The notes below the pieces were generated by a model. It did not search any database. It had not been told where the DNA came from and was given only the letters and a program-made list of their open reading frames with translations. This document shows, in pieces, positions 36,311 through 42,723 of a DNA stretch of 64,000 nucleotides (within the stretch, counting starts at the first letter, position 1; every line of letters begins with the position of its first letter). The stretch covers positions 415,454-479,453 of the forward strand of contig NZ_JALXFV010000003.1 of NCBI RefSeq assembly GCF_023699475.1, written 5' to 3'. This DNA comes from Halomarina rubra (GTDB taxonomy: Archaea; Halobacteriota; Halobacteria; Halobacteriales; Haloarculaceae). Made by a program: the position numbers and the translations under genes.

Positions 36311-36324
36311 TTAGGTTGGCCTAA
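36311..36324. promoter_or_regulatory. Palindromic iron operator candidate TTAGG-N4-CCTAA
   Basis: A perfect 5-bp inverted repeat with 4-bp spacer between the TATA box and the start codon. The sequence resembles DtxR/IdeR-type boxes. A sister site with 6-bp arms lies before the permease gene (38444-38459). Confidence 0.7.
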
Positions 36325-36329
36325 ACCGT

Positions 36330-37541
36330 ATGGACGACCACCGGACGCGACGACAGTTCCTGCTGGCGAGCGGTGCGGTCGGGGCGGGCGCGCTGCTCGC
36401 AGGCTGTACGAACGACGGCGGCTCCGGCGAGGGGTCACCGACCGCGGACCCGACCGACGCGGGGACCGATGGAGGGACCGACGCCGGGGGCCAGGGGACG
36501 ACCACCGAATCGACCGAGAACCAGCAGTCGACCGAGAGCGGCTCGTACTCGGTGTCGATGGAGCCGGTCGGTACCGTCGAGTTCCAGTCGGTGCCCGAGG
36601 CGGTGGCCGTCTACTGCCCGGGCTACGCCGACATGGCGGTCGCGCTCGGTCACGGCGACGCCGTGAACACGGTCGGGCAGAAGGCGCGCTACTACACGAG
36701 CTACTACGACGACCTCTCGGGAGTCAGTCTCGACAAGGCGTCGCTGACGAACATGTACCAGGACGGCATCGACAAGGAGCTGTTCTACGAACTCGACAGC
36801 GACCTCCACCTCGTCGACCCGAACTGGCTGCTGAACAACTTCAGCGGGTGGGCGCAGTCCGACGTCGACGACGTGAGCGAGAACGTCGCGCCGTTCCTCG
36901 GGAACACCATCTTCCGCCGGACGGACGACTGGCACGACTACCAGTACTACTCGATGTACGAGGCGTTCGAGAAGGTCGCGCAGGTGTTTCAGGAACAGGA
37001 GCGCTACGAGGCGTTCGCGTCGTTCCACGACGACGTCCTCTCGACCGTCGAGTCGAACCTGCCCGCCGAGGGCGAGCGCCCGAACGCGCTGTTGACCTTC
37101 GGGAGCGGCGACCAGCCAGAGACGTTCTCGCCGTACCGGATCACCGGAAAGGGGACGAACAAGAAGCAGTTCCGCGACCTCGGCATCGGCGACGCGCTGG
37201 AGGGGACCGGCATCGGCGGCCTCTCGACGAACGACCGCGGCCAGATCGACTACGAGACGATGGCCGAGGTCGACCCCGACTCCATCCTGATTCGGGGCCA
37301 CGAGACGAAGACCGAAGGGGAGTTCCAGGACACCGTCGTCGCGTTCATGGAAGAACACCCCGTCGCGAGCGACCTCACGGCCGTCCAGGACGGGATGGTG
37401 TTCCGTGGCGGCCCCATCTACGAGGGGCCCATCCAGAACCTGTTCCTGACCGAGCGGTTCGCGCAGGCGTACTTCCCCGACCAGTTCTCGGGCGAGCTGT
37501 TCGACCGCGACGAACTCGCGAGCGTCGTCACCGGCAACTGA
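36330..37541 (+). CDS. Iron-siderophore-type ABC substrate-binding lipoprotein
   Basis: A 403-residue exported protein. Its leader has a twin-arginine motif (RTRRQFLLASG) and the lipobox LLAGC, then a Thr/Gly/Asp tether to about residue 70. The mature part is a type III (FepB/BtuF-like) binding domain (VAVYCPGYADMAVALGHGDAVNT...), with a C-terminal FLTERFAQAYFPDQF helix. Siderophore, haem or cobalamin are possible ligands; the iron-type operator favours iron. It is followed 3 nt later by a flavoprotein gene. Confidence 0.88.
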   Translation: MDDHRTRRQFLLASGAVGAGALLAGCTNDGGSGEGSPTADPTDAGTDGGTDAGGQGTTTESTENQQSTESGSYSVSMEPVGTVEFQSVPEAVAVYCPGYADMAVALGHGDAVNTVGQKARYYTSYYDDLSGVSLDKASLTNMYQDGIDKELFYELDSDLHLVDPNWLLNNFSGWAQSDVDDVSENVAPFLGNTIFRRTDDWHDYQYYSMYEAFEKVAQVFQEQERYEAFASFHDDVLSTVESNLPAEGERPNALLTFGSGDQPETFSPYRITGKGTNKKQFRDLGIGDALEGTGIGGLSTNDRGQIDYETMAEVDPDSILIRGHETKTEGEFQDTVVAFMEEHPVASDLTAVQDGMVFRGGPIYEGPIQNLFLTERFAQAYFPDQFSGELFDRDELASVVTGN

Positions 37542-37544
37542 GCC

Positions 37545-38405
37545 GTGACGACCGACCCGCCCGCGAGCGACACCGACGCCTCCGCCGTCGCCGACGCCGC
37601 CGACACGGCCGCCGCGGACGAGCAGCGTGACGTGGTCGTCGTCGGCGGTGGGGCGGCCGGTCTCTCGGCGGCGCTGTTCACCGCCCGGTACGACCTCGAC
37701 ACGCTCGTGTTCGACCGCGGCCCCTCCGCCATCCGCCAGGCGTACGTCGTCGAGAACTACCTGGGACTGCCCGCGATAACCCCCGAAGAACTCCTCTCGG
37801 TCGGGCGGACGCAGGTCGAGGACGCCGGCGGGAGCGTCGTCGAGGACGCCGTCACCGACGTCGTCCCCCTCGCGGCGGGCGACGACGCGCCGCGATTCCG
37901 CGTCGAGACCGCCGACGGCCGCGCCGTCGAGACCGGTGCGGTCGTCGCCGCCTCCGCGTACGACGCCGACTACCTCCCCGAGGACGTCGACCCCACCGCC
38001 GTCGACGAGGGTGGCCGGACCGACCGCGACGGACTCTACGTCGCCGGGTGGCTCACCGAAGGCCCCCACCAGGTCGTCGCCTGCGCGGGGCAGGGCGCGC
38101 GTGTCGGCAAGACCGTCGTCTCGAACCGCCGCCGGGCCGACGGCTGGTGGGACGCCGTCGCGACGTACTACGACTGGTCGGTCCCCGAGGGGCGCTACGA
38201 CGAGGCGGAGTGGCACGAGTCGATGGACGCGTGGCTCGCCGACACCCGCCCCGAGGCCGTCTCCGACGAACGCTTCGAACGCGTCAGCGAGGCCGTCAAG
38301 GCCGACCGCCTGGCGTTCGAGACGACCGCGACGGAGCGCGACGAACGGGTCGCGTCGGGCCGCGAGGCGCTTCGTGAGGGCCTCGACTGGCCGAGCGAGG
38401 GGTGA
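37545..38405 (+). CDS. Thioredoxin-reductase-like FAD protein lacking a visible NAD(P)H domain
   Basis: A 286-residue protein with a GTG start 3 nt after the binding-protein gene. After a 27-residue acidic leader, the FAD site is VVVVGGGAAGLSAALFTARY. The chain then passes (VVAASAYDADYLPEDVD) straight to the C-terminal FAD motif RDGLYVAGWLTEGPHQ. No second GxGxxG/A and no CxxC is visible, so the NADPH domain and redox disulfide of thioredoxin reductase seem absent. The last about 95 residues are a new Trp/Glu-rich helical region. Placed in an iron-uptake operon, it may act as a ferric-siderophore reductase with another electron donor; this is inference. Confidence 0.75.
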   Translation: MTTDPPASDTDASAVADAADTAAADEQRDVVVVGGGAAGLSAALFTARYDLDTLVFDRGPSAIRQAYVVENYLGLPAITPEELLSVGRTQVEDAGGSVVEDAVTDVVPLAAGDDAPRFRVETADGRAVETGAVVAASAYDADYLPEDVDPTAVDEGGRTDRDGLYVAGWLTEGPHQVVACAGQGARVGKTVVSNRRRADGWWDAVATYYDWSVPEGRYDEAEWHESMDAWLADTRPEAVSDERFERVSEAVKADRLAFETTATERDERVASGREALREGLDWPSEG

Positions 38406-38443: not shown

Positions 38444-38459
38444 TTTAGGGGTACCTAAA
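38444..38459. promoter_or_regulatory. Palindromic iron operator candidate TTTAGG-N4-CCTAAA
   Basis: A perfect 6-bp inverted repeat with a 4-bp spacer, 9 nt before the permease ATG and overlapping its probable TTTTA box. It is related to the site at 36311-36324. Confidence 0.72.
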
Positions 38460-38468
38460 CGCAATCGA

Positions 38469-39677
38469 ATGGCGACCGACATCGACACGGCCACCGACCG
38501 CCAGCGGGGACGCGCCTCGCTGGTCGACGGCCGACTGCTATCGCTCTGTCTCGGGAGTTCGTTCGTCGTCGTCGCCAGCCTGCTCGTCCAGGTGAGCTTC
38601 GGGACGTACTCGATGAGCATCCCCGAAGCGTGGGGGGCCGTCGCCGACGCGGCCGTCTGGACGAACCCGCAGGTCCTCTTCCGGTTCCTGCTCGGCGAGG
38701 GCCTCGGGAACATCGTCGCGAGCACGCTCGGGTTCTCGACGGCCGAGGTGGACCTCGCGACGGCGACGAACATCGTCTGGAACATCCGACTGCCCCGCGT
38801 CTTCGTCGCCATCCTCGCCGGCATGGCGCTGGCGGTGTCGGGGGCCATCTTCCAGGCGGTCACCCGCAACGAACTCGCCAGTCCGTTCATCCTCGGGGTC
38901 TCCTCGGGGGCGGGACTGACCGTCCTGTTGACGCTCGTCGTGTTCTCCGGGGCCACGTTCGTCGTCCCGCTCACGGCGGGCGCGGTCGTCCTCGACCCGA
39001 CCGCGTTGCTCCCGTTCACCGCCGCGCTGGGCGGGGCCATCGCGTTCGCGCTCGTCTACGCCATCGCCTGGAAGGGCGGCACCAGTCCCGTCCGCCTCGT
39101 CCTCGCGGGCGTCGTCGTCTCGACGGTGTTCCAGTCGCTCCAGCGCGCGCTGTTCACGTTCGCCAGCGACATCGGCGTCGTCCAGCAGGCGCTCGCGTGG
39201 ACCACCGGGTCGCTCACCGGCGTCGGCTGGGGCCAGGTCCGCGTCGCGCTCCCGGGGACGCTCCTCGCCGTCGTCCTCGCCCTCCTCCTCGCCCGGCAGT
39301 TGAACGTCCTCCTGCTCGGGGAGAAGACCGCCCGTTCGCTCGGGATGCCGGTCGAGCGGATGCGCCTCGGCCTCTCGGTCGTTGCCATCGTCGCGGCCGC
39401 CGCCTCCATCGCCGTCGCCGGCATCGTCAGCTTCGTCGGTCTCATCGTCCCCCACGTCGTCCGGAACGTCGTCGGGAGCGACTACCGGAAGCTCATCGTC
39501 GGCTGTCTGTTCGTCGGCCCCGCGCTGCTGTGTGCGGCGGACGTCGGCGCACGGCTGTTCTTCGAGGTGGTGTTCGACCAGCCCCAACAGCTCCACGTCG
39601 GCATCGTGACGGGGCTGGTCGGCGGGCCGTACTTCCTCTACCTCATGCGCAAACAGGACACGATGGGTGAGCTATGA
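38469..39677 (+). CDS. FecCD/BtuC-family ABC permease
   Basis: A 402-residue permease with about nine or ten membrane segments. Family marks are IRLPRVFVAILAGMALAVSGAIFQAVTRNELASPFILGVSSGAGL and, near the C-terminus, GIVSFVGLIVPHVVRNVVG. It has its own operator-bearing promoter, and its stop overlaps the ATPase start (ATGA). It imports the ligand of the upstream binding protein. Confidence 0.93.
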   Translation: MATDIDTATDRQRGRASLVDGRLLSLCLGSSFVVVASLLVQVSFGTYSMSIPEAWGAVADAAVWTNPQVLFRFLLGEGLGNIVASTLGFSTAEVDLATATNIVWNIRLPRVFVAILAGMALAVSGAIFQAVTRNELASPFILGVSSGAGLTVLLTLVVFSGATFVVPLTAGAVVLDPTALLPFTAALGGAIAFALVYAIAWKGGTSPVRLVLAGVVVSTVFQSLQRALFTFASDIGVVQQALAWTTGSLTGVGWGQVRVALPGTLLAVVLALLLARQLNVLLLGEKTARSLGMPVERMRLGLSVVAIVAAAASIAVAGIVSFVGLIVPHVVRNVVGSDYRKLIVGCLFVGPALLCAADVGARLFFEVVFDQPQQLHVGIVTGLVGGPYFLYLMRKQDTMGEL

Positions 39678-40726
39678 GCCGGCAGGACCAGGACTCGACG
39701 CAGGGACCGACGACCGGCGGCGGCGAGCCCGCGGCGGACGGTGGCGAATCGGTCGACCCGGACGGGGCCGACACCCGGTGGGCCACGCCCGCACACGACG
39801 AGTCGGCCGGGAGCGCCATCGTCGGCGAGGACCTCGCCATCGGCTACCCCTCGACCGACGACCCCATCGTCGAGTGTGCGCGGCTCGACGTTCCACAGGG
39901 GGAAATCACGGCGCTCGTCGGGCCGAACGGGTCGGGCAAGTCGACCCTGTTGAAGTGTCTGGCTCGCGAACTCGCCCCCGAGCGAGGGGGGGTCGTCCTC
40001 AACGGTCGGGCCCTCCAGGAGCGTTCCTCGAAGGAACTCGCCCGCGAACTGGGCCACCTCTCACAGGAACACGACTCGCCGTCGACGCTCACCGTCGAGG
40101 ACCTCTGTTACCACGGCCGGTACCCCTACCGGGGGTTGTTCGACTCGCTCTCGGAGGCCGACGACCGGGCCGTCGAGCGCGCGATGTCGCTGGCAGGCGT
40201 CGACCACCTCGCGGACGCCGAACTCGGCCAGTTGAGCGGCGGGCAGCGCCAACTGGCGTGGATCGCGATGGTGCTCGCGCAGGACACCGAGGTGCTCCTG
40301 CTGGACGAACCGACGACGTTCCTCGACCTCCACCACCAGTTGCGCGTCCTGGAGACGCTCCGGAAACTCAACGCCGACGAGGGCGTCACCGTCTGCGTCG
40401 TCCTCCACGATATCGCGCAGGCCGCCCGGTTCGCCGACTACCTCGTCGCGCTCCGCGACGGCGAACCGTACGACTGGGGGCCGCCCCGAGAGGTCGTCAC
40501 CGAGGAACTGCTCGCCGACGTGTTCCGCGTCGACGCCGCCGTCCGCTACACGCCCGAACCGGAGGTCATCCCGCGCTACGCGCTCGCCGAGGAGTCCGAC
40601 GAGGAGGGTACGGCCGACCCTGTGACCGACACCACGCCCGAGGAGTCGGCAACCGACACGACCGAGAAGTCGGGGGCCGGGGTGACCGACGCCGACGGTC
40701 GACGGTCCGACGACGACGCCGAGTGA
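39674..40726 (+). CDS. FepC/BtuD-type ABC ATPase
   Basis: A 350-residue ATPase with Walker A VGPNGSGKSTLL, signature LSGGQRQL and Walker B VLLLDEPTTFLDLHHQ, the FepC arrangement. The N-terminal about 45 and C-terminal about 65 residues are low-complexity acidic tails. It overlaps the permease gene by 4 nt, so it is its partner. Confidence 0.93.
   Translation: MSRQDQDSTQGPTTGGGEPAADGGESVDPDGADTRWATPAHDESAGSAIVGEDLAIGYPSTDDPIVECARLDVPQGEITALVGPNGSGKSTLLKCLARELAPERGGVVLNGRALQERSSKELARELGHLSQEHDSPSTLTVEDLCYHGRYPYRGLFDSLSEADDRAVERAMSLAGVDHLADAELGQLSGGQRQLAWIAMVLAQDTEVLLLDEPTTFLDLHHQLRVLETLRKLNADEGVTVCVVLHDIAQAARFADYLVALRDGEPYDWGPPREVVTEELLADVFRVDAAVRYTPEPEVIPRYALAEESDEEGTADPVTDTTPEESATDTTEKSGAGVTDADGRRSDDDAE

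Positions 40727-40785: not shown

Positions 40786-42723
<1,938 letters not shown>

Follow-up and report, generated by a model that had tools for sequence, protein, structure and literature searches.

A one-domain thioredoxin reductase-type flavoprotein linked to iron-uptake genes in Halobacteria: a candidate ferric-siderophore reductase

The window, which is the whole stretch of 64,000 nucleotides analysed here and part of a 4.07-Mb haloarchaeal genome (G000), encodes on its forward strand a one-domain thioredoxin reductase (TrxR)-type FAD protein of 286 aa with a GTG start codon (37545..38405), hereafter the long form. Immediately upstream, on the same strand, lies the gene for a FecB-like ferric-siderophore binding protein of the TAT/lipoprotein type (36330..37541; Peripla_BP_2, PF01497, 6.7e-21). 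The gap between its end at 37541 and the flavoprotein start at 37545 is 3 nt, in agreement with the first-pass annotation, and both genes are probably carried on the same mRNA. Downstream, again on the forward strand, are genes for a FecCD-type ferric-siderophore ABC permease (38469..39677; PF01032, 5.7e-81), a FecE-type ABC ATPase (39674..40726; best NCBIfam match FecE at 1.4e-80, under the cut-off) and, 3′ of the latter, an MsbA-like exporter-fold ABC protein (40786..42723), which is adjacent in some relatives as well. No signal sequence was matched in the flavoprotein in the Pfam scan, whereas the FecB-like protein matched the TAT_signal model (4.8e-4, just under that model's cut-off); the flavoprotein should therefore act in the cytosol. 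Copies of the MsbA-like protein with >50% identity occurred in 10 of 60 long-form loci (9/40 in the window's own family and 1/20 in other families). This protein may carry the siderophore back out once emptied, or use its exporter fold for import.

Two palindromes, both unstranded features, flank the flavoprotein gene and its upstream neighbor. TTAGGTTGGCCTAA (36311..36324), a putative iron-repressor site of the DtxR/SirR type, ends 5 nt upstream of the start codon of FecB, and TTAGGGGTACCTAA (38445..38458) lies 10 nt upstream of that of FecCD. The common motif, TTAGGNNNNCCTAA, thus occurs twice in the window, where 0 occurrences are expected: once before the FecB-flavoprotein pair and once before FecCD.

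The first-pass annotation had read the protein as TrxR-like FAD halves joined directly, with neither a second Rossmann motif nor a CxxC, and both parts of this reading were borne out. The FAD-binding motif GGGAAG (residues 34-39; 37644..37661, forward strand) has no second counterpart. Pfam detected only the N-terminal dinucleotide-binding motif, the best stretch being residues 29-73, which matched Pyr_redox_2, and a second nucleotide-binding motif was found neither in the Pfam scan nor in the long-form alignment. The protein contains one cysteine, Cys180, and no CxxC. In a phmmer comparison with 5nii, residues 26-135 and 152-193 matched 5nii residues 2-107 and 249-290, skipping the NADPH domain, with the second piece (residues 152-193) weak when taken alone (E 6). 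The FAD half-domains therefore meet at residues ~137-157 (37953..38015, forward strand), the position of the NAD(P)H domain in TrxR. In contrast to the split match to 5nii, TTHA0370 of Thermus thermophilus (2cvj) aligned in a single piece over flavoprotein residues 29-196 (phmmer, PDB sequences), and 2cvj was also the best PDB match (E 2.1e-31) of profile A1, built from 28 long forms.

Structure prediction agrees with these alignments. The AlphaFold2 model of the window protein, built with 4 sequences (pLDDT 74.2, pTM 0.72), comprises a single FAD domain followed by three helices at the C-terminus (residues 220-234, 241-257 and 262-278), with a weakly predicted loop at residues 65-76. In the fold search, model residues 27-213 superposed on the whole of 2cvj (Z 22.4, rmsd 2.0 Å, 171 residues, 34% identity). 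Several two-domain reductases came within Z 1 of 2cvj and are tied with it, matching by their FAD domain only. The model of L099, a Halobacterium relative, agrees (pLDDT 76.7, pTM 0.76; 2cvj at Z 22.3), and the C-terminal part is mostly helical in both models. No NAD(P)H domain appears in the predicted structure. The missing domain is thus real, and a one-domain TrxR-like architecture is already known from TTHA0370. The earlier wording that the domain was "lost" stands as to its absence; it does not stand as a recent deletion in the window gene, since the trait is family-wide. The aspartate of the TrxR "G-D" near the C-terminal FAD part is absent from the alignment in both the flavoprotein and TTHA0370, so that FAD binding by the window protein, judged from its sequence, is likely, short of proof.

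The new C-terminal region of about 95 residues noted earlier is indeed helical, and its length is refined to about 88 (residues 199-286; 38139..38402, forward strand; alignment and AlphaFold2). A profile of the extension itself (A4) gave one chance-level match against the PDB (best E 0.6), and 0/20 members had a match in NCBIfam. Whole-model fold searches hardly probe this part, and residues 199-286 may yet have a known fold. The extension contains Asp210-Trp211, which is invariant across 42 long forms, across 25 short forms (see below for the short form) and across the unique sequences of a larger set filtered by length, motif and score (82/82). IruO-type enzymes have a residue from the C-terminal region that stacks on FAD, a part that this pair might conceivably play; the model holds no FAD, and pLDDT near this pair is low. 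Tyr139 is likewise invariant in the 42 long forms and is replaced by Asn in 20/25 short forms. The FAD motif, Tyr139, Gln176 and Asp210-Trp211 are all kept in the window protein.

Position 66 behaves differently. Codon 66 (37740..37742, forward strand) encodes Ala in the window protein, while the position is Cys in 38/42 long forms and Asn in 25/25 short forms; in the larger set, from which three Asn-bearing short forms were set aside for this count, 75 of the 79 others have Cys. Relatives that carry Cys66 occur in Haloferax and in H. marismortui (WP_011222677.1). The residue sits just before a V-E-N-Y stretch that aligns with TrxR, where we take this loop to lie near the flavin. The loop is poorly predicted, and its placement beside FAD is not fixed by the model. 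Despite its frequency, Cys66 was rejected as a universal redox centre because the window protein has Ala66, and a thiol route via Cys66 cannot be general.

The long form is a conserved haloarchaeal family found in about two thirds of the sampled Halobacteria, and no local oddity of the window. Searching with the window protein recovered relatives, of several forms, in 145 of the 146 genomes of its family. With profile A1, the best E-values across 292 Halobacteria genomes fell into two sets separated by a gap from ~1e-64 to 1e-84, and the long form, counted from the A1 listing, was present in 187 of these genomes. Its absence from the other 105 indicates that it is dispensable to the class. No long form was found with A1 in 124 non-Halobacteria genomes (G380-G503) of a 148-genome phylum sample, where the top score of 99.5 bits came from the N-terminal part. 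A contig collection yielded no relative when scanned with the window sequence alone; scanned with A1, it yielded mostly distant TrxRs, the true long forms being only L099 and L100. Two further candidates, L112 and L130, were rejected as relatives because they are two-domain TrxRs with CxxC, and were kept solely as outgroup.

Haloarchaea also encode short (~245 aa) and mini (~190 aa) one-domain paralogues with the same FAD domain. A 57-sequence tree placed the 35 long, 16 short and 4 mini forms and the 2 two-domain TrxRs in groups set apart by a branch each. Support for the long-form branch was not strong (84/83), and long branches meet between the mini forms and TrxR. The window protein grouped with a congeneric sequence, L039, to which it is 71% identical. 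The short form shares the Asp-Trp pair with the long form and differs from it in Asn66 and in a weaker iron linkage (5/20 loci; see below). The mini form is a third paralogue, a bare FAD domain of 192 aa; in several genomes it is encoded within the long-form cluster, a few kilobases away from the long form (for example, L224:14924-15502, L057:14972-15547 and L082:14213-14788).

Placement in an iron operon, as stated in the first-pass annotation, extends to the homologues. Neither of the two results that the annotation would have counted against itself, an intact NAD(P)H domain in the prediction or homologues never linked with iron genes, was obtained. In 58 of 60 loci (40/40 in the window's family and 18/20 in other families) the long form has a FecB, FecCD or FecE gene within 500 bp, as opposed to 5 of 20 short-form loci (Fisher p 2.7e-10, kinship ignored). 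These loci (40 long from the window's family, 20 long from other families and 20 short) are the best-scoring matches rather than a random sample, and two long matches were left out (G012:C1:341944 and the one in G040, identical in coordinates to that in G041). Of the two exceptions, L198 (genome G190) has no Fec match in 14 kb, yet carries the palindrome within 3.5 kb, and L202 has its nearest Fec match at 517 bp, just outside the cut. An extra stretch, L229, had no Fec match. Among named examples, the long form is directly followed by permease and ATPase genes on Haloarcula marismortui pNG700, overlaps FecB and permease genes by 4 nt each on Halobacterium hubeiense pSTJ001, and follows FecB in both Halobacterium sp. 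TGN-42-S1 and Haloferax sp. Q22, the order in the latter continuing flavoprotein-FecCD-FecE. Haloterrigena turkmenica provides another iron-linked long form, and in Natrinema versiforme a metal-dependent regulator gene and dpsA lie 3′ of the flavoprotein gene (L226:10128-11428). RefSeq names the plasmid-borne long forms "NAD(P)/FAD-dependent oxidoreductase" or "FAD-dependent oxidoreductase."

Two other arrangements were observed. A short form (L063:8576-9310; G124:C10:94587-95246) lies directly 3′ of two IucA/IucC siderophore synthetase matches, which indicates that the short form is also able to occur in an iron context. In Haloferax larsenii (L239:7989-10268), the long form is followed by a binding-protein gene and sits beside the denitrification genes nosZ and nosD, a neighborhood worth noting because iron genes are reported to be repressed during denitrification (see below).

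The palindrome accompanies the long form as well. The 60 long-form loci contained 134 TTAGGNNNNCCTAA sites, distributed over 55 loci; the next best of the 320 half-sites with two G/C compared gave 8, and 10 simulations gave 0. Of the long-form loci, 48/60 had a site no more than 3.5 kb from the flavoprotein gene, compared with 7/20 short-form loci. In the window's own genome TTAGGNNNNCCTAA occurs 9 times, while the backward control gave 0. The seven sites outside the window are near genes for a Peripla_BP_2 protein, an extracellular solute-binding protein, a 2Fe-2S ferredoxin and an aconitase, and near a gluconate-dehydrogenase-subunit-3-like gene, an RGP-like gene and an ABC/regulator pair. 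The palindrome presumably resembles a DtxR box, and we assume a DtxR/SirR-type regulator as its binder. Sites are often paired, with starts 34-37 nt apart (L085:6435/6471, L090:5724/5760, L091:7627/7663, L094:1096/1132 and others), which suggests two repressor dimers per promoter.

Published expression data point in the same direction. In an RNA-seq study of H. mediterranei, E6P09_02485, an "NAD(P)/FAD-dependent oxidoreductase," has a log2FC of −4.06 and is repressed under denitrification; so are E6P09_02480 (permease), E6P09_02475 (ATPase) and genes for siderophore synthesis, and SirR is proposed there as a possible regulator (PMC11218638). E6P09_02485 is probably an orthologue of the long form, and its gene order fits Haloferax sp. 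Q22. On the strength of the conserved Fec linkage, the palindromes and this expression table, we are highly confident that the flavoprotein has a role in the iron regulon. Beyond the first reading, the analysis adds a conserved family, a solved one-domain relative, near-universal linkage in the sampled long forms, a flanking palindrome and a cysteine that is missing in the window copy.

Several known systems can be compared with the window protein. TTHA0370 ("thioredoxin reductase related protein"; 2cvj, 2ywl) shares the single TrxR-type FAD domain and the direct junction; its chain of 180 aa ends after the FAD domain, whereas the window protein adds the 88-residue extension. To our knowledge TTHA0370 has no known function, and a full-text literature search found no functional study of it. 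Bacterial and archaeal NADPH thioredoxin reductases have the FAD fold and sequence family in common with the window protein, but possess the inserted NAD(P)H domain and the CxxC that it lacks. With SIP/ViuB and FhuF ferric-siderophore reductases the likeness lies in the proposed reaction, as the window protein had no Pfam match to SIP (PF04954) or FhuF (PF06276). IruO and FNR1, TrxR-like ferredoxin/flavodoxin oxidoreductases of Firmicutes, are likewise FAD enzymes of iron acquisition with an iron-repressor box (PMC10294844); unlike the window protein, they retain an NAD(P)H domain, and their box is a Fur box, in contrast to the TTAGG palindrome found here. According to the same paper, IruO is reported to reduce hydroxamate siderophores, and this chemistry therefore suits the FAD scaffold. 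The ferredoxin-dependent flavin thioredoxin reductase (FFTR) pairs a TrxR fold with a ferredoxin donor (PMC12796991). It has a redox-active disulfide, which the window protein with its single Cys lacks, and nothing observed here suggests a thioredoxin role.

SIP (PF04954) was matched in 0/146 family genomes. PF06276 matches occurred in 34/146 and IucA/IucC matches in 33. Haloarchaeal FhuF was rejected as an explanation of the PF06276 matches compared by eye at a subset of places, since these come after an IucA/IucC match on a shared stretch and are apparently synthetase C-termini. A 309-aa frame in G100 matches PF06276 without IucA and could be a real FhuF. The window's own genome has neither a PF06276 nor an IucA/IucC match. 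In H. volcanii, the genes for import and for Fe(III) reduction are described as unknown (PMC7407949). Our literature search, itself incomplete, found no description of the long-form family as an iron reductase, nothing on one-domain TrxR, and nothing relevant on haloarchaeal siderophores combined with thioredoxin reductase.

Siderophore-bound iron normally needs reduction or ligand cleavage. The window protein is most likely a ferric-siderophore reductase among the cytosolic FAD enzymes one could envisage for the haloarchaeal iron-uptake regulon, an assignment on which our confidence is evenly balanced. The first-pass annotation had put forward a reductase supplied by ferredoxin or another partner as one idea, a sensible one that the present results support in part. 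In such a scheme, FecB would capture the ferric siderophore outside the cell and FecCD-FecE would bring it in; the flavin of the flavoprotein would then pass an electron to the Fe(III)-siderophore, and Fe(II) would be released. The C-terminal helices with the invariant Asp-Trp could cover the flavin face exposed by the missing domain and form a site for substrate or partner. Because the NAD(P)H domain is missing, recharging would fall to an external donor, either a protein or a small molecule. The first candidate is a haloarchaeal 2Fe-2S ferredoxin, which is plausible by analogy with FFTR and from the palindrome before a ferredoxin gene, although we regard it as possible and on balance doubtful. 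In the window's own genome an exact palindrome precedes the 2Fe-2S ferredoxin gene (L234:1501-1948). The idea of ferredoxin co-regulation was retained as no more than a weak hint, as such a palindrome was found in just 4/30 related genomes including this one (5/30 with one mismatch), mainly at genus level. A thiol acting via the conserved Cys66 would be the second candidate, a route absent in the window copy.

The iron operon evidence applies also to a siderophore-processing oxidase or dehydrogenase, in which the flavin would draw its electrons from the ligand (or a thiol) and give them to O2, the altered ligand freeing the iron. A substrate that is itself the electron source would make an NAD(P)H domain unnecessary, and the structural neighbors of the model in the fold search include HlmI, DepH and GliT, which we take to be dithiol oxidases. 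These enzymes keep their second domain, however, and presumably carry a CxxC that the flavoprotein lacks, and we consider this activity unlikely. Direct reduction, with either NAD(P)H or reduced flavin in free form as donor and without a nucleotide Rossmann domain, is something of which small flavin enzymes are capable, but with no nucleotide-binding motif besides the FAD one it appears very unlikely here. The missing family-conserved Cys could instead point to a non-catalytic protein, such as an FAD-binding chaperone or a redox sensor for the transporter or for its regulation; as the FAD motif, Tyr139, Gln176 and Asp210-Trp211 are retained, this is the least probable of the options.

A role of the flavoprotein within the iron regulon could also concern heme or cobalamin, with the protein passing electrons, for example, to an enzyme that degrades heme. 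FecCD and BtuCD are hard to separate by sequence, the permease also scores with BtuC models, and FNR1 and IruO reportedly reduce enzymes of the IsdG type (PMC10294844). Against this, ferric-siderophore models rank top for both permease and ATPase, though under the cut-off, and the neighboring gene in H. mediterranei is co-repressed with siderophore synthesis genes (PMC11218638). Moreover, among 58 family genomes the long form was present in 13/14 IucA/IucC-positive versus 24/44 negative genomes (p 0.011, kinship ignored). A heme or cobalamin function is therefore quite unlikely.

Returning to ferric-siderophore reduction, we tentatively propose, though we rate it somewhat less likely than not, that the long form represents a new reductase class: a TrxR FAD domain without an NAD(P)H domain, capped by C-terminal helices and charged by a partner (ferredoxin) or a thiol, which would supply the missing reduction step in Halobacteria. 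The FAD domain would then exist in three tiers (mini, short and long), with the long form dedicated to iron. For the release of iron from imported siderophores in haloarchaea, this conserved, iron-linked family provides a concrete candidate gene and a small, assayable protein. If the proposal is true, the family would further illustrate how a TrxR-type FAD domain functions when it has no NAD(P)H domain of its own, the question posed by the TTHA0370 structure.
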